The notes below the pieces were generated by a model. The model saw nothing but the letters and a program-made list of their open reading frames with translations. It had not been told where the DNA came from and did not search any database. Source: Firmicutes bacterium HGW-Firmicutes-11 (GTDB lineage: Bacteria; Bacillota; Clostridia; Peptostreptococcales; Anaerovoracaceae). Taken from it: a stretch of DNA of 64,000 bases. Made by a program: the position numbers and the translations under genes. The stretch spans positions 50,827 through 114,826 of the forward strand of contig PHAE01000003.1 of NCBI GenBank assembly GCA_002840285.1. The letters run 5' to 3'. Of the stretch, positions 43,411 to 56,195 are shown piece after piece (position 1 is the first letter of the stretch; every line of letters starts with the position of its first letter).

Positions 43411-45081
43411 TTATTTGCCTTCCGGCACTTTGTCTGGTGTCAGGGTTCTGTAATAGCTTCCGCCCAAATGATTCGGGTTGAATGCCTCTCTTACTTTCCA
43501 CTGGTATGCCATGACGTGAGGTTGCGCCATCTTGACGAAGAATGAATCATGCTCTTCTTGTGTGTAGTTGTAAGAGTCTTCTCTTCTGCACTCCGTGTTC
43601 CATCTACTGAAATCACCGCCAAGGCCATGCTCTGTCATCCACCGTTGGGTATCGTCGAAGAACTCCTTGGTGCCACGGATGGAATCCTTGTCGTATGCGT
43701 CGAAATTGGTGAAGTATTCCCATCCGGTGACGCCGCCGCCACCGATACCAGAGATGCTGCCCATTTCCGAGTCGCCGCCGGTGGCTGCGATCGCAGTGGC
43801 TTCTACTTCCCACTTTCTCTTGAGTGCAGATGCCTCTTCCATAAGCGGGGTTGTCACATAGAGGTTGGATGACATTCCGAAGTTGCCTTCGTACGCGCCG
43901 CAGAGAACGTAGTTCAAGTTCTTATGTCCAAGGCGGAGCAAGTAGAGCAACGCCCAGTCGTGAACGTCCTTCTCCAGCATCATTTCGTTCTTCCATCCGC
44001 GGGATAGCTTCAAGATCTCGTCGATCGCTTTCTCTTTGTATTCCATATCCTTCTTGGTCATTCCCGCGATCACGACCTGGAATTCCAGCTTCATGCTCTC
44101 GTTTTGCTTTTGAAGTTCCGGATCTTCAAGCAGCTCCGGCAGGTCGCAAAGTTGTTTCTCTGGATCGGTCAGGATCCGTATCATAGCGCCCTTGAGATTT
44201 CTCCCAAACATATTGTACTGTCTGTGTCCGAGATACAGCACATCGTTTTCATGAATGATGGCTGCGGCAGTCGTCCAGCCCTCCCAATCCGGGAAACAAA
44301 GGGTGTAACATTTGAAGTTGTCAGGAAGCACTGCTTTGTATGCAGGAAGGACTCCGTCGGACGGCAGGAAGGTCGGTCCCGGCCAGGGATGAAGTCTGAC
44401 AGCGATCTTTGTGCAGACACCCATGGAACCAGCTACACCGGTCACTCCACGGAACACGGAACGAAAACTCGGTCCCGGGCCCTCACCGCAGAACCAACCG
44501 GCGCCTGCCCCTGCAGACCCTGTTTTGATTACTTCGCCATCCGGTAAAACCCATTCTGCGCTAAGCAAGTTTTCACCGGAAGCACCCATGAAAATCGATG
44601 TGGGTCCAAATCCTGCCCATCCGGAGGTGCTGGCAAGGGTGGAACTGCTGCAACCAACACCAGGGATATTGAGGTTCAAGCCAACCTTCATCGCTTCTGC
44701 TTGAACGACAGCGGCAATCGCATAGGGTTCAATGATCGCACACTGATTTTTGGCATCGATTTCAATTTTGGACATGCGGCGCATGTCTAATTGTACTGCA
44801 TAATCCGATCCGATGTATGCCATGGTCGCATAGAAGGTGGAACCTGCTTTGAATTGGATCTTGTATTTGTTACAGATCCGAACGACATTTTGAACCTCTT
44901 CCGTACTGCCCGGTAGTATGACTGCCTGGGGCAGTGGGGTCCAATGGTCGAAGGGACCGTAGTGAGCCGAGGTCTGGGACGCAATGCTGCGATAGGATTC
45001 GCAGACGCCGATATCTTCCGAAATGTTCTTCTTTCCAACGATATCTTCCAGAGCTTGATAGATTTCTCTTGCTAATGCCAT
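43411..45081 (-). CDS. FAD-linked oxidase (PCMH/VAO fold, GlcD-like)
   Basis: FDHWTPLPQAVILPGSTEEVQNVVRICNKYKIQFKAGSTF; GASGENLLSAEWVLPDGEVIKTGS; GVTGVAGSMGVCTKIAVRLHPWPG. Confidence 0.88.
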   Translation of the reverse strand: MALAREIYQALEDIVGKKNISEDIGVCESYRSIASQTSAHYGPFDHWTPLPQAVILPGSTEEVQNVVRICNKYKIQFKAGSTFYATMAYIGSDYAVQLDMRRMSKIEIDAKNQCAIIEPYAIAAVVQAEAMKVGLNLNIPGVGCSSSTLASTSGWAGFGPTSIFMGASGENLLSAEWVLPDGEVIKTGSAGAGAGWFCGEGPGPSFRSVFRGVTGVAGSMGVCTKIAVRLHPWPGPTFLPSDGVLPAYKAVLPDNFKCYTLCFPDWEGWTTAAAIIHENDVLYLGHRQYNMFGRNLKGAMIRILTDPEKQLCDLPELLEDPELQKQNESMKLEFQVVIAGMTKKDMEYKEKAIDEILKLSRGWKNEMMLEKDVHDWALLYLLRLGHKNLNYVLCGAYEGNFGMSSNLYVTTPLMEEASALKRKWEVEATAIAATGGDSEMGSISGIGGGGVTGWEYFTNFDAYDKDSIRGTKEFFDDTQRWMTEHGLGGDFSRWNTECRREDSYNYTQEEHDSFFVKMAQPHVMAYQWKVREAFNPNHLGGSYYRTLTPDKVPEGK

Positions 45082-45098: not shown

Positions 45099-46373
45099 TT
45101 ACAGCGCCATCTGTACGAGTTCAATGATGTCCAAGACTTGCATCTTGTTGCCATTTTCATCGACAGCGTTCGCGAAGTTATTTTTGCACCAGGGACATGC
45201 GCTTACCAGAGCATCCGCGCCGGTCGCGTTCGCTTCTGTCAATCTTTCTCCTGCCGTCCAGGAGGAAAATTCCGGCAAGGTGTCACTGCATCCGCCACCG
45301 GCACCGCAGCACCAGGAATATTCGCGGATCCGCTCCATTTCTACCAGTTCTACGCCGGGAATGCTGGCGAGAATGTTTCTGGGAGCGTCATAGATGCCAT
45401 TGGCTCCGGTATATCTGGGCCGTCTCGGTTCCCAAGTGTGGACCTGATTGAGGATTTTCTTTTCTTTCCCTTCCCAAGGGGTGAAGCTTTCGCCCAGTCT
45501 TCCCAGGTGGCAAGGATCGTGATAGGTCACGCTCATCGGAACCGACTTTGTGAACTTGATTTTACCATCAGCAATCAGACGATCCAGGTATTCGACCATA
45601 TGAAGAACTTCGACCGTGGATCCGGATTTGGGGTATTGCCGCTTGAATGCATGGTAGCAATCGGAGCAAGGTGTGACGATCGTTTTGACGCCAGCCTTTT
45701 CGAATGCTTTGATGTTGGCGGAGGACTGGTCATTGTATTCTTTTGTGAAGCCCATCTGCAGAGCTCTTCCGGCGCAACAGTTGTCCGCGCCCCCGAGGGT
45801 ACCGACCTTGACGCCGGCCTTTTGAAGAACTTTGACTGCGTTACGGGCAACTTTTTGCAGATCTTTGTTGTAGCTGTACTGGCATCCCGCAAAGAAAGCA
45901 ACATCAGCAGTTTCTTTGAAGAGATCGATCATGTCGAGTCCCTCTGCCCAATCCATGCGGTTCGCTTTTTTTGCCCCAACAAGCATAGTGTTTTCTTTTA
46001 CCAAGTTCTCGATCACCGGTAACTGTCCGGGAAGGGTTTTGCCGTCGGCAACTGCATGGGCTTTGAGTTCAAGATTGTGATCCAGTGGTTCCAGGTTATA
46101 ACGGCAGACTTTGCATGCCATATCGCAGGCTCCGCAAGCTGTACAGCTGTGGATGGTTTCAATGACATCATCCGTGTAAGTCGTGCGTCCATCCAGCATG
46201 CTCTGGGCCATCTGAAAGCGGCCGCGTGCTGTGTTTGTGTTGAAATTGTAGTAGCCAATGCTTGGGCAGTTTTGACCATATCTTTGGCTCTTGATCTTAT
46301 CAAAGGGAATCCATCTGCAATTAAGACACATGCTGCAGCGTTCCATCATAGGTCTGTAATCTTGTAAAGACAT
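45099..46373 (-). CDS. (Fe-S)-binding protein with CCG domains (HdrD/GlcF-like)
   Basis: CTACGACDMACKVCRYN; TIVTPCSDCYHAFKRQYP; YHDPCHLGRLGE; YSWCCGAGGGC. Confidence 0.9.
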   Translation of the reverse strand: MSLQDYRPMMERCSMCLNCRWIPFDKIKSQRYGQNCPSIGYYNFNTNTARGRFQMAQSMLDGRTTYTDDVIETIHSCTACGACDMACKVCRYNLEPLDHNLELKAHAVADGKTLPGQLPVIENLVKENTMLVGAKKANRMDWAEGLDMIDLFKETADVAFFAGCQYSYNKDLQKVARNAVKVLQKAGVKVGTLGGADNCCAGRALQMGFTKEYNDQSSANIKAFEKAGVKTIVTPCSDCYHAFKRQYPKSGSTVEVLHMVEYLDRLIADGKIKFTKSVPMSVTYHDPCHLGRLGESFTPWEGKEKKILNQVHTWEPRRPRYTGANGIYDAPRNILASIPGVELVEMERIREYSWCCGAGGGCSDTLPEFSSWTAGERLTEANATGADALVSACPWCKNNFANAVDENGNKMQVLDIIELVQMAL

Positions 46374-46402: not shown

Positions 46403-47875
46403 TTATACCGTGAGCTTTCCAGTATTCATAACATCATTGGGGTCGAAAATCTTTTTCAGCTTTTTCAACGCATTGTAGGACTGTGCGTCCTTGTTCAGCT
46501 GGAGCTTCGCCCACATACCGTACGGCCTCGCATAAAATGCTCCCAGTCCCGACATTAGTTCGCTTCCCTTTTCGAACATCCGCTTGACTTTCGCGGTTTC
46601 CAGAGCGTTGTTCGGATCATAAGGAAGATGGAATTCCAAGTGATAGGAACTTCCACAGTGCTGCGGTTGAATGTAGACACCGATATCCGAAGTGTTATAC
46701 CCTTCATCTTCTGCCAACTCGTACATGGCCTTCAAGAACATAGGTGTTTTGTCCAGAGTCGTCACGAAGAAAATGTCCTGGTAAGCGCCTTTTGCGGTTT
46801 CCTTCCAATACAGTTCTTTGGATGGGTTGAGGGCCTTTGCGAGAACCTTGTCCCCTTTGATCTTGGGAAGCGCCGGAACCATTTTCAGACCATGCTGCTG
46901 TGCGATCTCTTCGATGTCGCTGGTCTGCTGCTCTACTCTGTCTTCCGGCAGAAGCTCGCGTCCAAGCACTCCGACCAGAGCGACCCACTGGGGAAGTTCT
47001 GCTTTGAGTTGCTGGATCTGTTCTGCAGACTCGCCAAGCAATTCGGCTAAATAGGAACCGTTCATTACCATAAGTTCGTCGCTGAAACGAAGACGGATCA
47101 CGCGATAGACAAAATCGATAAGATTTTCTAACTTTTTCGCAGGCACAAAGTGCATATTGTGAATGGTCGGCAGGACTTCGCATTTCAAGGATGCCCATGT
47201 AACGATCCCCATAGTTCCCTGTGCTTGTGTAGGAATTCTCAAGAAATCAAACATGTTGGGACCGTTTCCGCTGACTTGCCACTTTTGCGCGTCCCATTGC
47301 TTTTCCAGATCCTTGACACCACCGGCAGCTTCACCGGTAAACATCGAGTTGCCGTCGCCCCAAACCACTTCCATGCAACGTAGGGGGTCGTGATACTGCC
47401 ACTGGTGGTTGGCGTTGAGTCGCGGTTCGACTTCAAGAACACTCGTCATGACCGACTTTGTTGCTCTGGGCGCCAGCGGCATCGAAAGAGTCATCCCTTC
47501 CTTTGCCAACGCTTCCTGTAGTTCTCCATAGGTGACACCCGGCTCAACCACCGTCATTCTCTGCTGCCGGTTGATGTTGAGGATCCGGTTCATTCCTGAC
47601 AGATCGACGATAACAGACTGAGGAACGCTTGGGATCGTATCTCCCTTGTGGTGTGGGCCGCCGGAGCTGACAGGCACCAGCGGTGTACTGGTTTCGTTTG
47701 CCCACTTCACCAGATCCTGTACCTGTTGCGCGTTTTGCGGTTTGACGACGAACCAAGGTCTGATGCCAGTTGCGAAGCTTTGGTCCTTCGCATAGGACTC
47801 CAGAATACCGGCATCGTCCTTGACGTTATCTGCGCCAACAATGGTGGCCAGCTTTTCTTTCATGCTATCGAACAT
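46403..47875 (-). CDS. FAD-linked oxidase (PCMH/VAO fold)
   Basis: VVKPQNAQQVQDLVKWANETSTPLVPVSSGGPHHKGDTIP; TVVEPGVTYGELQEALAKEGMTLSMPLAPR. Confidence 0.88.
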   Translation of the reverse strand: MFDSMKEKLATIVGADNVKDDAGILESYAKDQSFATGIRPWFVVKPQNAQQVQDLVKWANETSTPLVPVSSGGPHHKGDTIPSVPQSVIVDLSGMNRILNINRQQRMTVVEPGVTYGELQEALAKEGMTLSMPLAPRATKSVMTSVLEVEPRLNANHQWQYHDPLRCMEVVWGDGNSMFTGEAAGGVKDLEKQWDAQKWQVSGNGPNMFDFLRIPTQAQGTMGIVTWASLKCEVLPTIHNMHFVPAKKLENLIDFVYRVIRLRFSDELMVMNGSYLAELLGESAEQIQQLKAELPQWVALVGVLGRELLPEDRVEQQTSDIEEIAQQHGLKMVPALPKIKGDKVLAKALNPSKELYWKETAKGAYQDIFFVTTLDKTPMFLKAMYELAEDEGYNTSDIGVYIQPQHCGSSYHLEFHLPYDPNNALETAKVKRMFEKGSELMSGLGAFYARPYGMWAKLQLNKDAQSYNALKKLKKIFDPNDVMNTGKLTV

Positions 47876-47914: not shown

Positions 47915-47939
47915 CTGAATGCTTTCACTGAATTCATTC
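47915..47939. promoter_or_regulatory. TetR operator candidate, site 1
   Basis: CTGAATGCTTTCACTGAATTCATTC; 40 bp upstream of the FAD-oxidase start at 47875. Confidence 0.6.
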
Positions 47940-47998
47940 TTTCCCCGTCCGCTCTCATATTCATGTAGCGCATACTTTATGGAGCAGGTACCGGACCT

Positions 47999-49303
47999 TT
48001 ATTTGATCATGAGGCTCGGCAAGAATGTGGCAATGCCCGGGAACACGATCAGTACCAGTGCTGCCGCCATCAAAGCGAACCAGAACGGTATCGTTCCCTT
48101 AAAAACAGTTTCCAGCTTGATTTTGGTCAATCCCGAAGTGACTATGGCAACAACACCGACCGGCGGTGTCAGGAAACCGATCAAGATCATCAGGATCGTT
48201 ATGATCCCATACCAGATCCCGCTGAATCCAGCCGCGATCACGATGGGATAAAACAGACTTGTGAATATAATGAGCGCTGCCATGGCGTCCATGAAAAATC
48301 CCGACACGAAGAAGATCGCAAAAATCGTGAGCATCAGGAGCACCGGTGGCAGTTCCAAAAGATAGACTTGAAGAAATGAAGGGATTCGGCTGACGGAAAT
48401 GAAATTGCCAAAGGTGATGCCGCCAATGATGAAAATCATGAGCATGCCGGTGATCCTGGCAGTTCCGTACAGCGAATCCTTCAATCCCTTCAGTGTGCAA
48501 CGCCTGGTAGCAAGGCTGACGACAAAGGCCAGGAATGCGCCGAAAGCACCACCTTCGGTTGCGGTAAAAAGTCCGATCAGGATGCCGCCCATAGATACGA
48601 TGAAGATGAATGGGATCGGCCATACCTTTTTAAATGCCTCATTTCGTTCTGCCCGGTCAACTCTCACCGTATTAGGTGCCAGTTCCGGCTTCACACGAAC
48701 CATGATGAAGACCGTGATGATCATAAACAGCGCTGTCATGAGTCCGGGAAAAATACCTGCGATCAGCAACTGTCCGATGGATTCCTCGGTCAGCATGCCG
48801 TAGATTACCAAGTTAGAGCTTGGTGGAATGAGGATTCCCAGTGTGCTTCCTGCGGCTACAACACCTGCAGCGAGAGAGTCCTGGTAATTGCTTCTGCGCA
48901 TCTCCGGAACTGCGACCGGGGCGATCGTCGCAGTTGTAGCGATAACCGAGCCTGATACGGAGGCGAAGGCGGCGCAGGTGGCGACTGTGGCCATAGCGAG
49001 ACCACCACGAAATCGACCCAATATCGCGTTGAATGCGACGAACAGGTCCCGGCCCAGGCCGGTGTTGCCTAGCAACATTCCCATAAAAGTAAACATGGGG
49101 ATGACGCTTAGAGTATAATTGTTCACATTGTTGAAGGGGTCGGTTCCTAGTTTAGCAAGGGCGGCTTGCGGACTGACAACAAGACCGTATCCCACGGTTC
49201 CCACGAGGAACAGACTAAATCCGATCGGCACTTTGAGGAATACCAACACAAAGAGCGTGATGATGCCGACCACGCCAGTCATTTCGCTACTTAATTCCCA
49301 CAT
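47999..49303 (-). CDS. dctM: TRAP transporter large permease (DctM)
   Basis: ATVATCAAFASVSGSVIATTATIAPVAVPEM; AAGSTLGILIPPSSNLVIYG. Confidence 0.93.
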   Translation of the reverse strand: MWELSSEMTGVVGIITLFVLVFLKVPIGFSLFLVGTVGYGLVVSPQAALAKLGTDPFNNVNNYTLSVIPMFTFMGMLLGNTGLGRDLFVAFNAILGRFRGGLAMATVATCAAFASVSGSVIATTATIAPVAVPEMRRSNYQDSLAAGVVAAGSTLGILIPPSSNLVIYGMLTEESIGQLLIAGIFPGLMTALFMIITVFIMVRVKPELAPNTVRVDRAERNEAFKKVWPIPFIFIVSMGGILIGLFTATEGGAFGAFLAFVVSLATRRCTLKGLKDSLYGTARITGMLMIFIIGGITFGNFISVSRIPSFLQVYLLELPPVLLMLTIFAIFFVSGFFMDAMAALIIFTSLFYPIVIAAGFSGIWYGIITILMILIGFLTPPVGVVAIVTSGLTKIKLETVFKGTIPFWFALMAAALVLIVFPGIATFLPSLMIK

Positions 49304-49796
49304 TTGTGTTGTCTCCTTTAAAATCATAGACTGCTTTGATCAGATCCCAGAAGAATGCTACGATCAAAACGAAGATCCCAAATGCCGCCGTGTAGATGAA
49401 CGGCGTCAAGGGCAGGTGCAGTACGGGAGTGATCTGGTTTGAGCTTGCCATGCGTCCTGCAAAAGTCAGTGTCTGACGAAAAACCACAGAAAACAAGGCA
49501 ATGCATAGAATGCTTATAAAGAAATCGAAGACCGCTTTCACTTTGGGTTTCAATCGGTCATAAATCATTGTGACACCGACATTCTCGCCCTCGATCTGTG
49601 GCAGGCCCATTGCCAAGAAGCTGATGACTACCAGTCCTAAGCTGGATAGCTCATACACTCCAGCCACCGAGGAGTTGAACAGCCGGCGTCCTGCGATATC
49701 CCAAACCGTCATCAGCATGATCAAGAAAATGCAGATACCACTGATGCCGGCGGAGAAGTTGATCAATTTTCGTATGCCTTTCTCGGCTGCTTTCAT
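49287..49796 (-). CDS. dctQ: TRAP transporter small permease (DctQ)
   Basis: 4-TM about 169 aa, MTVWDIAGRRLFNSSVAGVYELSSLGLVVISFLAM. Confidence 0.9.
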   Translation of the reverse strand: MKAAEKGIRKLINFSAGISGICIFLIMLMTVWDIAGRRLFNSSVAGVYELSSLGLVVISFLAMGLPQIEGENVGVTMIYDRLKPKVKAVFDFFISILCIALFSVVFRQTLTFAGRMASSNQITPVLHLPLTPFIYTAAFGIFVLIVAFFWDLIKAVYDFKGDNTNVGIK

Positions 49797-49819
49797 TTCC
49801 GTTCCCTCCGGAAGTAGTC

Positions 49820-49854
49820 CGGGAAAGGGTCAACTTGTGATCGACCCTTTCCCG
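49820..49854. other. Intercistronic hairpin between dctP and dctQ
   Basis: CGGGAAAGGGTC ... GACCCTTTCCCG, 12-bp perfect stem, no T-run. Confidence 0.8.
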
Positions 49855-49872
49855 AAAACAAAAGGATAAAGT

Positions 49873-50922
49873 TTAGTGTGCTTCGATGTATTGCAGTGCC
49901 TTTTCATACATTTCGGTTCCGGCAAGACCCTTGGCGTCCATGTCTGCAATCCACTTTTCTTTCAATGGGTCAGTGATCGCATGGAACTTAGCTTCTTCTT
50001 CTGCTGAGAAGGTAATGAAGTTGATACCTTGCTCTTTACCGAACGCAACGCCGTGCTCAAATTCTGCATCGTACTGGGCGCCGATCACCGCCGGGAATTC
50101 TGCGAGCAGATCTTCCATTACCTGCTGATCGTCTGCGGATACTTTCGCCCAGGCGTCATTGTTCATGACGAAGATCAGAGGATTCATGTACACATCAAGA
50201 TCGATGATGTTGTCGGTGACTTCGGATAGTTTGAAGGAAACCAGAGCGGATGGCGACATCAGACTTCCGTCGACGATGCCTCTGTCCAATGCGTCATACA
50301 GGTCGCTGACCGGCAACGAAAGCTCTGTGGCTCCCAGCTTTGCATACAGTTCATTGTAAAGAAGTCCGGGGGAGCGCAATTTGAGACCCGCAAGACCTGC
50401 GACATCAGAGACTTCCTTGTTTATGAAGATTTTAGCGATGTCGGTTCCGCCGACCCACAGAAGCTTCATGTCACTGTACTCATACTTCTGCAAATCGTCG
50501 CGCATGTCCGCTGCGACCAGGTTGCCCTGCAGAGCGGTTTCAAACATGAAAGGGAATTCTAAAATGGATGTCAATGGAAATCTTCCCGGGGTGTAGGCTG
50601 CCAGAACAAAGCCCATTTCAAATGCGCCGCTGACGACAGAGTCCACCGTGGTCGGGGGTGGTCCCAATTCATTACTGGGATATACGTTGATGGTTACTCG
50701 TCCTTCGGTCTGTTCATTGACAGCGTCAGCAAACGGAACCAGGACATTGGTGTGGAGCGGATGCTGATTTGACATGAAATGGGACAAGCTGAAGGTCACC
50801 GGATCGGCTACCGGTTCTTCCCCTTCTGGTGTCTCACCACCGCCGCCACCGCAACCCGCCAGTACAGCAAGCAGCAATGCCATGATCAGGAGAACGCTAA
50901 GCTTTTTTGATACTTTATTCAC
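49873..50922 (-). CDS. dctP: TRAP transporter substrate-binding protein (DctP)
   Basis: Lipobox LAGCGGG; LAGLKLRSPGLLYNELYAKLGATELSLPVSDLYDALDRGIVDGSLMSP. Confidence 0.93.
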   Translation of the reverse strand: MNKVSKKLSVLLIMALLLAVLAGCGGGGGETPEGEEPVADPVTFSLSHFMSNQHPLHTNVLVPFADAVNEQTEGRVTINVYPSNELGPPPTTVDSVVSGAFEMGFVLAAYTPGRFPLTSILEFPFMFETALQGNLVAADMRDDLQKYEYSDMKLLWVGGTDIAKIFINKEVSDVAGLAGLKLRSPGLLYNELYAKLGATELSLPVSDLYDALDRGIVDGSLMSPSALVSFKLSEVTDNIIDLDVYMNPLIFVMNNDAWAKVSADDQQVMEDLLAEFPAVIGAQYDAEFEHGVAFGKEQGINFITFSAEEEAKFHAITDPLKEKWIADMDAKGLAGTEMYEKALQYIEAH

Positions 50923-50952
50923 AACTAATTCCCTCCTCTTTGACTAAATGGT

Positions 50953-50970
50953 TTCATTGAATGTATTCAA
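50953..50970. promoter_or_regulatory. TetR operator candidate, site 2
   Basis: Reverse complement TTGAATACATTCAATGAA; 16/18 identical to site 4. Confidence 0.65.
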
Positions 50971-51084
50971 TATACATGAGCATTTTGCCCAAGTCAATAA
51001 AATAATTAGAATTTTTTGCATTTTCTTGACATTGTTATATTCTAAGCACTTTAGAGGTTGACAAATGAAAAAAATGATTGTATG

Positions 51085-51110
51085 CTGAATTTGTTCAGCG
51101 AACACATTCA
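51085..51110. promoter_or_regulatory. TetR operator candidate, site 3
   Basis: TGAATTTGTTC-AGC-GAACACATTCA imperfect dyad (one mismatch), upstream of dctP. Confidence 0.6.
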
Positions 51111-51166
51111 TTGCATATCTTCTCACTCCATCCTTGTAATAAGCCGTTAGCTCTGTGTGATTTGCG

Positions 51167-51200
51167 AAAGGATGCCGACCCTCTGGGGTCGGCATCCTTT
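51167..51200. terminator. Terminator-like hairpin downstream of tetR-family gene
   Basis: AAAGGATGCCGACCC-TCTG-GGGTCGGCATCCTTT, 15-bp perfect stem. Confidence 0.75.
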
Positions 51201-51218
51201 CGTTTTATCTTTGCTATA

Positions 51219-51812
51219 TCATTGTTGTTTGAATACTGTAACCAGTCGTCTCATATAGAAGGGCAAAACTTCTTCGATATCGTAGCTGCCATCGTGCAGG
51301 CACCAGTCGAATACGATCCCACGGGCGGTGATGAAAAAATATTCGACGATGGCGATGGATTCCTCTGTCCTTATGAGTTCTCCGGTTCTTTGTCCTCTCT
51401 CGACGATTTCGTTCATCAGGTGAAACATTGCGCGATCTCGATCAAGAAAGGCTTTGTTGTCTGTATTGTACAATCTCTTGGTAAAATCCATGCTTGTGAG
51501 TTTTACGTATTTTGCATAATAGATGTAAAACTGCACGATCTGGTCTTCGATCGGTAAATTGCTCATGCTGTCATCGATGTGGGCTTGAAGATAATCGTCC
51601 GCCTTATGAAAGATGTCCAACAGGATGTCATTCTTGGATTTGAAATAGTAGTAGAAGGATCCCACCGAAACCCCCGCCTTTTTACTGATCGTCTCGATCG
51701 TGATGTTGTCAAAACCTTTTTTTTGCATCAGATCGATCGTAGTTTTCAGGATCTTGTTTCTGGTTTTGATTGCCTGTGCCTGCCTGGATGTGATTCGTTT
51801 ACTCTGTGCCAT
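51219..51812 (-). CDS. TetR-family transcriptional regulator
   Basis: TRNKILKTTIDLMQKKGFDNITIETISKKAGVSVGSFYYYFKSKNDILLDIF. Confidence 0.95.
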   Translation of the reverse strand: MAQSKRITSRQAQAIKTRNKILKTTIDLMQKKGFDNITIETISKKAGVSVGSFYYYFKSKNDILLDIFHKADDYLQAHIDDSMSNLPIEDQIVQFYIYYAKYVKLTSMDFTKRLYNTDNKAFLDRDRAMFHLMNEIVERGQRTGELIRTEESIAIVEYFFITARGIVFDWCLHDGSYDIEEVLPFYMRRLVTVFKQQ

Positions 51813-51888
51813 CTCAAGTTACCCCTGCTTCAAATCGTCTATTTTGTATCATATCTTAAACCACCTGGATTGCAATGTCAAACATATG

Positions 51889-51906
51889 TTGAATGGATTC
51901 AATGAA
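51889..51906. promoter_or_regulatory. TetR operator candidate, site 4
   Basis: TTGAATGGATTCAATGAA between the MFS stop and the tetR start. Confidence 0.65.
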
Positions 51907-53109
51907 TTATTTGCTCATGTCATCGAAGCTTTCTCTTCGCCGAAGCACAAATGCCATCACAAACATGAGCGCCGCAAACCCGAGCATCGCGATCGGCACG
52001 AGGAAATATGAGCCAGTCGATGTACGTATCCAGCCGGCCAATGTCGGCCCGACCGTTGATGATACCATGATCCCGCATGTTGCGATGCTGAAGTTGAGAG
52101 CGAGGTTTTTCGAACCAAATCGCGTTCGCACATAGTTGATCGTCAAAGTGGAAGAGCTGCCATAAAAGAGGCCTATGATAACACATCCTGTAATCAGAAT
52201 CGGCAAAAACCCGGTCCCAAAGTATATGATCAACAGGATCGTCCCAAGGGAGGACCCTGCGCATACCGTAAACATAGTTCTCGAAAATCCATTTCTGTCG
52301 AAGAAAACCCCGGTCAGGAATCTCCCGGATCCGTTGGCGATGGAAACCAATCCTACGACAAAGGCGGCAAATGTAGCCGTCATTCCAAAATCAAGTACCA
52401 TCGGGCTGGCATGGGCGATCAGCATCAAACCTGTGATCGAATGGCAGATCATCCAGGTCAAATACACCTTGAAATTTTTGGATTTGATCATCTCCATACC
52501 CGAGTAATCCCGGATCGCCACGATATCACTCTCGATTTCTTCCGGCATCACCATCTTTTGACTTCGAATAAACAGCGCCGCAATCGTCAGAAACAGTGCG
52601 TCAGCGATCGCGATCCCGAGAAAGGTCGTTCGCCAACCTTGTAGGAGGATGATACGAGTGACCGCTGTTCCTAAGATCATGCCGCCCAGACCAAACGCAA
52701 ACATCATCAGTCCCGATACCATTCCTTTTCGACGAAACAGCGGGATCATGGTTCCAACGACTGCGTTGTAGGTGATGCCCACGCCAAATCCGCAAAAGAC
52801 GCCATAGGCGAGGAAGATCTGCCATAGCTCATGCACTCTGGAAGAAAGACCGAACCCTATGAAGAGAAAGACCGCCGCCAATAAGAAAACAAAGCGTGTG
52901 CTGAAAACCCGCATCAAATTACCGCTGGCGAGTCCGCCAAGACAAAAGAACACCATGGAGATCGAGAAGATGAACGATGTCTCCGTGCGATTCCAGCCAA
53001 ATTCAGCTTCCAATGGACTCACAAAGATCGACCATGCATAAATCAATCCTACCAACAGCATCAAAAAGAATCCATAAATCAAATAAACGTATCGCAGTAT
53101 GATCCCCAC
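51907..53109 (-). CDS. MFS transporter (OFA/monocarboxylate-like)
   Basis: 12-TM; LMLLVGLIYAWSIFVSPLEAEFGWNRTETSFIFSISMVFFCLGGLASG. Confidence 0.9.
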   Translation of the reverse strand: MGIILRYVYLIYGFFLMLLVGLIYAWSIFVSPLEAEFGWNRTETSFIFSISMVFFCLGGLASGNLMRVFSTRFVFLLAAVFLFIGFGLSSRVHELWQIFLAYGVFCGFGVGITYNAVVGTMIPLFRRKGMVSGLMMFAFGLGGMILGTAVTRIILLQGWRTTFLGIAIADALFLTIAALFIRSQKMVMPEEIESDIVAIRDYSGMEMIKSKNFKVYLTWMICHSITGLMLIAHASPMVLDFGMTATFAAFVVGLVSIANGSGRFLTGVFFDRNGFSRTMFTVCAGSSLGTILLIIYFGTGFLPILITGCVIIGLFYGSSSTLTINYVRTRFGSKNLALNFSIATCGIMVSSTVGPTLAGWIRTSTGSYFLVPIAMLGFAALMFVMAFVLRRRESFDDMSK

Positions 53110-53225: not shown

Positions 53226-56195
53226 ATGACCGATGCAAAGAAACGACTGTCGGAACAGCTGCTCGGGCTGGAGCAATTGCTGAACGACACGGCAGCCAAG
53301 CACCCCCACTTTGCCAAGCGATTGCAAGAAAGAAACATGATTGCACAAATCAAGCTCAGAGATGATTCTCTGGGTCGGTACTATATATTCAAAGATGGGC
53401 AGGTAGCTTCTGAGTCCGGCATCCATCCTGACGCGGATGCAATGGTTTGGTTCGACAACGCGGAAACTGCCCTGGCGATCCTGAAGTCGGATAGAAATCA
53501 GCTGGAATACATCAGCGCGATCAAGAGTTTTCAGATGGGCATGCCCGGTCCCGACGAGCCTAAGCTCTGGTTCTGGGAAACACTTGGAATGATGGTGACC
53601 GCTCCCATCACCTATGGAACCGACATGGGCGACGGTGTAACAAGATACACGAGCAACACCAACGGCGGACCGGTATTTGTGTATGTCAAGGAGGATAAGA
53701 TCCTGCGGATCACGCCGATCTATTTTGATGAGGAGGATGCGGATCCCTGGGTCATCGAGGCAAAAGGCAAAAAATACTCTCCGCCAAAAAAAGCGACCGT
53801 CGACTCCTATACACAAGCATGGAAATCCATGGTCTACTCGAAAGAACGACTTTTATATCCGATGCGTCGAGTAGATTTTGATCCCAATGGAGATCGCAAT
53901 CCTCAAAATAGAGGAATTTCAGGTTATGAACGCATTAGTTGGGAAGAAGCATTGGACCTGGTGACCAGTGAGATTCGAAGAATGAAGCGGGATCACGGTC
54001 CCGGCGCGATATTGAACGGCAGTGGCTCCCATCACACCTGGGGCTATCTCGGCTACTGGTTGAGCCTGCGGTTGCGTTTTTTCAATCAGATCGGTTTTAC
54101 ACCGGTGGACCACAATCCTGATAGCTGGGAAGGCTGGTTCTGGGGCGCGTCCCACCATTGGGGACAGATCATGCGTCGTGGCGGAGGAGAAACTTACGGC
54201 ACCCTGGAAGATTGCATGAAGAACTGCGAGATGATCGTGTTCTGGTCCAGCGACCCGGAAGCTACCAGTGGCCTGTATTCAGCCCACGAAGGAACGATCC
54301 GCCGGCAGTGGCTCAACGATCTTGGCATCAAGGTCGTCCACATCGACCCGTACTACAACCATACCGCTGCCTACCTCGGCGGAAAATGGATCGCGCCTAA
54401 AGTCGGAACCGACGTGGCCATGATTTTGGCGATCGCTTACACCTGGATCAAGGAAGATCTCTACGACAAAAAATATGTGGCTGACCGCACGGTGGGATTT
54501 GAAAAATGGCAATCCTATATCCTCGGCGAAGTGGATGGGATCGAAAAGACTCCCGAGTGGCAGGAAGCTGAAACCGGTGTCCCTGCAAAAACCGTCCGGG
54601 CTCTCGCGAGAGAATGGGGCACAAAGAAGACCTATCTTTCTCCGGGAGGCATCGTCGGCTTCGGCGGCGCTTGCCGCGCTTCCACCGGCCCGGACTGGGC
54701 AAGAGGCCTGGTCATGCTGATGGCGATGCAGGGCCTCGGAAAACCGGGGATCAACCTGGGCAGTCTCCAACAGGGCGCGCCGGTCGATACGAGATTCTAT
54801 ATCCCCGGGTATTCAGAAGGCGGATTCTCCGGCGACATCAACGCCACCGCCAACGCAGTCAACCTATACCAGCGGATGCCCCAGCTTGCTTCTGAAAATA
54901 CCGTCCGACAGATGATCCCGCGGCTAAAACTGCCGGAGGCCATCATGGAAGGCAAGTGCGAAACCAACTTTACCGACTCCAAGGTGTTGGAGGGACAGTT
55001 CTTTGAATATAAATATCCGGCACCGGGCCATTCGCCGGTCAAAATGTACTACAAGTACGGTGGTTCCCATTTCGGTACCATGACCGATACCAACCGCTAC
55101 GTCAAGATGTATCAGAGCGACAACCTGGAATTCGTCGTGAACCAATCCATCTGGATGGAAGGCGAAACGAAGTTCGCCGACATCATCCTGCCGGCCTGCA
55201 CCAGCTTTGAGCGCTGGGACTTCAGTGAATTCGCCAATTGTGGCGGTTACATCCACCAGTGTTACACCCAGGTCAACAGTCGGGTCGCAGTCCTGCAGCA
55301 CAAATGCATCGAACCGCTGGGTGAATCCCGTTCCGATTTTCAGATTTTCTACGAGATCGCCAAGCGCTTGGGTTATGGATTCAACTTCTCCGAAGGGAGC
55401 ACCGAGTTCGACTGGTGCAAGCGCCTGTTCGACGGCACCGACTTGCCGAAAGCCGTCCAATGGGAGGACTTCTGCAAAAAAGGATACTATGTCGTTCCTC
55501 CTCTTCCGGAGAACAGAAGAGATCCGGTTTCCTACAACTGGTTTGCCGAGGATCGGGCAAAGGATACCCCGGAAATGTTCCCCATGCCGGGAGACTACAC
55601 CGAGGAATTCCCCAAAGGCCTTCAGACACAATCCGGAAAACTGGAGTTTGAGTCATCCAGTCTTAAACGCTACAACCCGGACGATCCGGAACGGCCTCCG
55701 ATCCTGACCTACATCCCCTCTTGGGAAGGGCCCCATTCCACGGATTTGCTCAAGAAATATCCGATGCAGCTCGTTTCTCCCCATCCCCGGTTCAGTTTCC
55801 ACACGATGGGGGATGGCAAAGACAGCACCATCAACGATGTCAAAGATCACCGGGTGCTCATCGACGGCCATTACTATTGGATCGCCCGAGTCAATCCGGA
55901 GGATGCTGCCGCAAGAGGGATCAAGGAAAACGACCTGATCAAAGTATACAATGACCGGGGCGCTGTCATCTGCGCCGCTCAGGTCAGCGCCAGGATCCGG
56001 CCGGGAGTGGTCCATTCCTACGAGTCCTGCGCGATCTACGAGCCTGTGGGAAAACCCGGCGAATCGCCGGATCGGGGAGGATGCATCAACAATCTGACAC
56101 CGAGCCGCATGATCATCAAAAAATCCCACGGAATGGCAGTCAACTCCTGCCTGGTAGACGTGGCAAAATGGGACGGAAAGGAGACGGTACTGTAA
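53226..56195 (+). CDS. athL: Pyrogallol:phloroglucinol transhydroxylase large subunit-like molybdoenzyme with N-terminal SCP2-like extension
   Basis: Strong remembered similarity to Pelobacter acidigallici Ath[22 protein letters not shown]-like [31 protein letters not shown]-like, LEFVVSQSIWFEGE-like, [24 protein letters not shown]; about 130 extra N-terminal residues look like SCP2. Confidence 0.88.

Follow-up and report, generated by a model that had tools for sequence, protein, structure and literature searches.

FadR of Bacillus, a regulator of the TetR type, answers to acyl-coenzyme A (CoA) esters and acts on fatty-acid genes. MbdR of Azoarcus sp. CIB is a TetR repressor of anaerobic 3-methylbenzoate degradation with 3-methylbenzoyl-CoA as its effector (PMC4424350), and the CouR/TarPQM system of Rhodopseudomonas palustris places a tripartite ATP-independent periplasmic (TRAP) transporter, together with enzymes for its substrate class, under a single aromatic-responsive repressor (PMC3610893). 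TetR proteins known to bind as a dimer of dimers do so at operators of 20-32 bp (PMC4150764, PMC10636190; 22-32 bp by the former). Here we describe a locus in a 64,000-nucleotide stretch of the uncultured anaerobe Firmicutes bacterium HGW-Firmicutes-11 (contig PHAE01000003.1, positions 50,827 to 114,826; the whole stretch is called the window and numbered from its first letter), in which four palindromic sites, A to D, accompany tetR, the gene of a TetR-family regulator and presumed repressor, the TRAP transporter genes dctPQM, and an operon for two flavin adenine dinucleotide (FAD) oxidoreductases and an Fe-S protein (FAD1-CCG-FAD2). Judged from sequence, these very probably form a local regulon under a TetR-family repressor. 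The regulon is ordinary in kind; its notable parts are a promoter-operator signature and site C, whose promoter has no gene after it.

The regulator has a TetR_N DNA-binding domain and an all-helical ligand domain, as members of the family do, and its AlphaFold model (predicted local distance difference test, pLDDT, 88.7) is all-helical, with FadR of Bacillus and MbdR as the nearest solved folds. FadR is the best fold match and its operators also have TGAAT/ATTCA half-sites; however, it uses a single palindrome at fatty-acid genes rather than a tandem array at 13-bp pitch. MbdR, among the best matches in both sequence and fold, is also of the TetR type and represses a cluster for anaerobic catabolism from operators over transcription starts, but its operator is ATAC-N10-GTAT, its target enzymes are others and its identity over the ligand domain is low. 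As an equivalog of Bacillus FadR (NCBIfam NF053878, 53 bits against a cut-off of 200) or of AcuR (NF051457, 55.1 bits against 247) the protein was rejected. CouR/TarPQM offers a precedent for joint control of a TRAP transporter and of enzymes by a single repressor; however, CouR is of the MarR type, its enzymes and operator differ, and aromatic-acid binding by the DctP protein of the window is a lead only. A text search for the operator core returned no paper on a bacterial regulator among the matches listed.

The initial annotation had proposed a four-site regulon with an asymmetric consensus. All four sequences are present, within one base of where it had placed them, but upon re-alignment that consensus gave way to a better one, a full palindrome with the symmetric core GAATGnnTTCAnTGAAnnCATTC. 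Each operator, 23-25 bp long, reads TGAAY-nn-RTTCA-N-TGAAY-nn-RTTCA, that is, two 12-bp palindromes at a pitch of 13 bp. With up to three mismatches to the core the window holds six matches (two of them within other genes) where 0.14 are expected, and no shuffled sequence reached six. In the whole genome (1.93 Mb in 75 contigs, 95.85% complete) no places other than A, B and C lie within two mismatches, and the reversed control gave none; D is one of six places at the three-mismatch level and is thus not significant alone by the whole-genome count. Under an independent consensus, TGAAYNNRTTCANTGAAYNNRTTCA, derived from the loci of other genomes and scored out of 20, C, B, A and D are the top four positions of the window, the best unrelated position reaching 15. 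It could be argued that such sites are a chance resemblance of AT-rich intergenic DNA, since the TGAA/TTCA half-sites are short and TTCANTGAA by itself is not enriched within the window. We regard this as extremely improbable: it is refuted by the co-occurrence across genomes described below, and also by the rarity of the sites in window and genome and by the ranking under the independent consensus. An equal density of the motif elsewhere in the same genome had been named beforehand as an outcome that would speak against a regulon, and the genome scan did not give it.

Among 346 genomes of the order Peptostreptococcales, 37 carry an orthologue of the TetR (E<=1e-30); beyond the order, orthologues occur in Halanaerobium, one metagenome-assembled genome (MAG) of the Halanaerobiales and one Chloroflexi MAG. 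At most loci whose TetR has at least about 37% identity to that of the window (the orthologues range from about 37 to 60%) an operator is no more than a few hundred bases away, while none adjoins the more distant TetRs examined. The unit in these relatives is the 12-bp palindrome TGAAYnnRTTCA, arranged at 13-bp pitch, mostly in two copies and at some loci (L120, L124, L125, L042) in three. A palindromic operator is conserved near the gene, as expected of a local TetR regulon. A pattern in which promoter and operator are fused matches 17 times in 14 of the 346 genomes, compared with once for its reversed control, and 15 of the 17 matches adjoin TetR orthologues, with differing target genes. These counts, which do not rest on the window alone, are the main evidence from sequence that operator and TetR belong together. 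The regulon as first proposed is thus borne out: the operator tracks the TetR orthologues from genome to genome, and is found there on dctP and FAD1 promoters too.

The usual geometry in relatives is TTGACA-N16-18-TATAMT running directly into GAAY, such that the last T of the sigma-70 -10 element is the first base of the operator. When every operator was taken irrespective of its promoter (68 orientations, a promoter being a match of at least 10/12), this offset of +1 was found in 21; an offset of -12, which results when the same promoter is measured from the following unit, was found in six, and every other offset at most twice. Over 27 promoter-operators all four half-sites are kept, with a partial fifth in register; as this set was partly selected by promoter geometry, its promoter columns are not independent evidence, unlike the offset and pattern counts. 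The placement, which would block a promoter, occurs at B, C and most relatives. Since B starts at the last -10 base of the dctP promoter, and covers about -7 to +18 relative to the predicted start, bound repressor would prevent use of this promoter. The promoter at site A is weak, having TATACT but no recognisable -35, and the operator overlaps its -35/spacer region; FAD1 may also be read through from dctM, in which case A may serve as a roadblock or act on an internal promoter. Site D does precede tetR, as the initial annotation held, but it sits upstream of the -35 element and off the promoter, and autoregulation is therefore only plausible: D may exert weak control over tetR. It also overlaps, at 51907-51913, the stop codon of the upstream gene of the major facilitator superfamily (MFS).

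Several observations weigh against a local TetR regulon of this kind. A and D are without the standard promoter geometry. The FAD1-CCG-FAD2 operons of L183 and L184 adjoin diverged TetRs and have no motif beside them, and at L126, with another diverged TetR at FAD1-CCG-FAD2, the sole site is about 7 kb distant. The TetRs of these three loci have 35-38% identity, and their operator is presumably different. Moreover, two promoter-operators (in genomes G308 and G339) are away from any close TetR orthologue. The latter pair would suit the view that the palindromes serve a different regulator, be it a second TetR paralogue or something unrelated, with tetR merely a neighbour: the TetR next to the G308 sequence has just 27% identity, and the G339 sequence has none next to it. 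However, 15 of the 17 exact matches adjoin TetR orthologues although their targets vary, leaving the TetR as the common factor, and we consider another regulator very unlikely. Given the rarity and clustering of the sites, their recurrence beside TetR orthologues, the fused-promoter counts, the offset peak, the conserved half-sites, the shared targets and a TetR tree that groups by target, a local TetR regulon is strongly favoured. As to the two isolated loci themselves, in L185 (5570-6330, G339:C10) an exact promoter-operator precedes a 223-aa protein without Pfam match and then an HlyD-type membrane-fusion protein, possibly as a distant member of the regulon, and in L186 (3946-6060, G308:C57) the gene after the promoter-operator is that of a branched-chain amino acid transporter, with the TetR gene next in line.

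Each site consists of four alternating half-sites (TGAA, TTCA, TGAA, TTCA) in a 13-bp repeat, with half-site centres 8 bp apart within a unit and 5 bp apart in the inner pair. The interleaved half-sites pointed out initially as a sign of two cooperating dimers have proved to be conserved, all four of them and in part the fifth, and three-unit arrays at the same pitch occur naturally. Two dimers lying side by side at each site would be the simplest reading and fits this geometry, as does the conservation of more than two half-sites per operator. A single dimer on the inner TTCAnTGAA palindrome, with the outer half-sites merely adding affinity, would agree with the perfect inner half-sites of A, B and D. 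However, the 5 bp between the inner centres compare poorly with recognition helices 31-38 Å apart in solved TetR-type dimers (PMC4150764), the outer half-sites are conserved and arrays reach three units, making a single dimer improbable. With two dimers per site the operator would resemble those of QacR, CprB and DarR, which fall within the size range for two dimers (PMC4150764, PMC10636190), but the palindromes overlap there, whereas here, as far as the DNA sequence tells, they stand in tandem at 13-bp pitch, in up to three units.

Site C had been counted as one of two sites before dctP. Its promoter, however, lies on the plus strand and points away from dctP into a terminator; this promoter at a conserved offset weakens the case for C as a second dctP operator, which it probably is not. 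Among the remaining 26 promoter-operators, 25 are followed on the same strand by a gene that begins at most about 360 bp away, and for one the contig ends first; C faces the 3' end of tetR. A promoter of its own and a Rho-independent terminator, with no gene between them, are predicted here, as for a small RNA, and the candidate transcript would fold with -43.3 kcal/mol (z -6.1), mainly owing to the terminator hairpin. No other strong hairpin follows tetR, but this one, with its T-rich tail on the plus strand, is no obvious terminator for tetR itself. By eye the transcript contains no convincing small open reading frame, one ATG lying within the terminator stem. A known family, conservation or a target did not emerge: the candidate has no match in Rfam, a scan of 42-60 kb gave no known RNA family at the gathering threshold, pairing with 17 gene-start regions yielded nothing below p 0.08 against shuffles, and the closest relative (L165/L040) has nothing that corresponds to C. 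The absence of counterpart, pairing target and Rfam match would fit a C that makes no stable RNA and is either the remnant of a plus-strand gene since lost or a second, looping dctP operator, with 141 bp between the centres of B and C. To this we assign an even chance. The 10/12 promoter at the conserved offset and the plus-strand terminator after it argue against it, and a relic should have decayed, yet C is the best site of the window. More tentatively, and with distinctly lower probability, C may control a noncoding RNA of about 120 nt that converges on tetR and is antisense to the 3' untranslated region of that gene. If so, a small RNA would be under the same repressor as the transport and oxidation operons, possibly as feedback on tetR. 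The tandem arrangement of two or three palindromes at 13-bp pitch would, in addition, be an operator layout for TetR proteins undescribed in the literature searched.

The genes of the locus are all on the minus strand, in the transcription order MFS, tetR, dctP, dctQ, dctM, FAD1, CCG Fe-S protein, FAD2, MFS (Table 1). Two classes of target recur with the TetR. The first is dctPQM and FAD1-CCG-FAD2 with the same TetR, as in the window, L120, L121, L165 and L167 (in L043 for FAD1-CCG-FAD2). The second, in many Peptostreptococcales and in Halanaerobium, is a fumarate-reductase-like flavin reductase of about 600 aa (FMN_bind and FAD_binding_2). The TetR tree follows these targets, with 3 changes compared with 10.5 in shuffles. 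In L176 and L182 the operator adjoins a reductase of the BaiCD/old yellow enzyme type, without the usual promoter geometry. L165 (1325-13823, G339:C13) has within 12 kb a pair of paralogous TetRs, 60% and 41% identical to the one of the window, each with operator-like sites, one beside dctPQM and the other beside FAD1-CCG-FAD2, so that the single regulon of the window is split there.

Table 1. Features of the tetR-dctPQM-FAD1 locus (window coordinates)
Feature	Position	Strand	Remarks
MFS gene	51907-53109	-	first in transcription order
tetR	51219..51812	-	197-aa TetR-family regulator, presumed repressor; TetR_N (PF00440) E 1.1e-14; TetR_C_24 weak
dctP	49873..50922	-	TRAP substrate-binding protein; PF03480 E 7e-46; best solved relatives 7nr2, 4n6d, 7nsw
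dctQ	49287..49796	-	small TRAP permease; PF04290
dctM	47999..49327	-	large TRAP permease; PF06808 E 1e-88
FAD1	46403..47875	-	FAD_binding_4 oxidoreductase, vanillyl-alcohol oxidase (VAO)/D-lactate dehydrogenase superfamily
CCG-domain Fe-S protein	45099..46373	-	FAD1 operon; PF02754 E 3e-29; FAD1-CCG-FAD2 order conserved
FAD2	43411..45081	-	second FAD_binding_4 oxidoreductase of the operon; PF01565; FAD1-CCG-FAD2 order conserved
Operator A	47916..47940	.	upstream of FAD1 (start 47875); 23-bp core 47917-47939, 0 mismatches; 18/20 by independent consensus
Operator B	50945..50969	-	on dctP promoter, base 1 at its end; core 50946-50968, 2 mismatches; 18/20
Operator C	51086..51110	+	on plus-strand promoter; core 51087-51109, 2 mismatches; 19/20, best of window
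Operator D	51890..51914	.	weakest site, upstream of tetR -35; core 51891-51913, 3 mismatches; 17/20
dctP promoter	50969..50997	-	TTGACT-N17-TATATT; 10/12 match
tetR promoter	51881-51853		TTGACA-N17-TAAGAT; D adjoins -35 from upstream
Promoter at C	51058..51086	+	TTGACA-N17-TATGCT; 10/12 match; directed at tetR 3' end; offset as in regulated promoters of other genomes
Candidate RNA from C promoter	51093..51212	+	about 120 nt; start predicted; no downstream gene on plus strand
Intrinsic terminator	51164..51203	+	18-bp stem, T-rich tail; about 70 nt beyond predicted RNA start

Which molecule the repressor answers to can be narrowed by several leads, although they do not identify it. The reductase targets, the nearness of its fold to the acyl-CoA-responsive FadR and MbdR, and the relationship of FAD1 to vanillyl-alcohol-oxidase enzymes point to an acid, or the corresponding CoA ester, that carries either a double bond or an aromatic ring. 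We put at somewhat less than even the chance that the effector is a carboxylic acid, aromatic or alpha,beta-unsaturated, or the CoA thioester of such an acid. The aromatic lead is qualified by the kinship of FAD1 to D-lactate dehydrogenase as well: its model is weak (pLDDT 67.6), and the best folds are both VAO enzymes that oxidise 4-phenols and D-lactate dehydrogenase. The titles of the PDB entries matching DctP do not give its ligand; two of them, 7nr2 and 7nsw, are presumably tied to lignin aromatics. Divergent from the MFS gene that adjoins the regulon is the gene of a 989-aa molybdopterin enzyme (53226-56195) with a first domain like that of pyrogallol hydroxytransferase (AhtL), and no operator was found at this gene.

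In the scenario that we favour, the TetR would bind palindromic arrays overlapping the start region of its target promoters and, at dctP, deny RNA polymerase the use of the promoter, until a small-molecule effector in its C-terminal pocket releases it. The transporter and FAD1-CCG-FAD2 would then be induced together, leading to import and transformation of the effector or its precursor. The signature TTGACA-N16-18-TATAMTGAAYnnRTTCAnTGAAY can be searched for, and would mark a subfamily of TetR regulators, apparently undescribed so far, that occurs in anaerobic Firmicutes and Chloroflexi. One regulator would thereby link uncharacterised TRAP transporters, FAD/Fe-S oxidoreductases and fumarate-reductase-like flavin reductases, which would narrow the search for their substrates.

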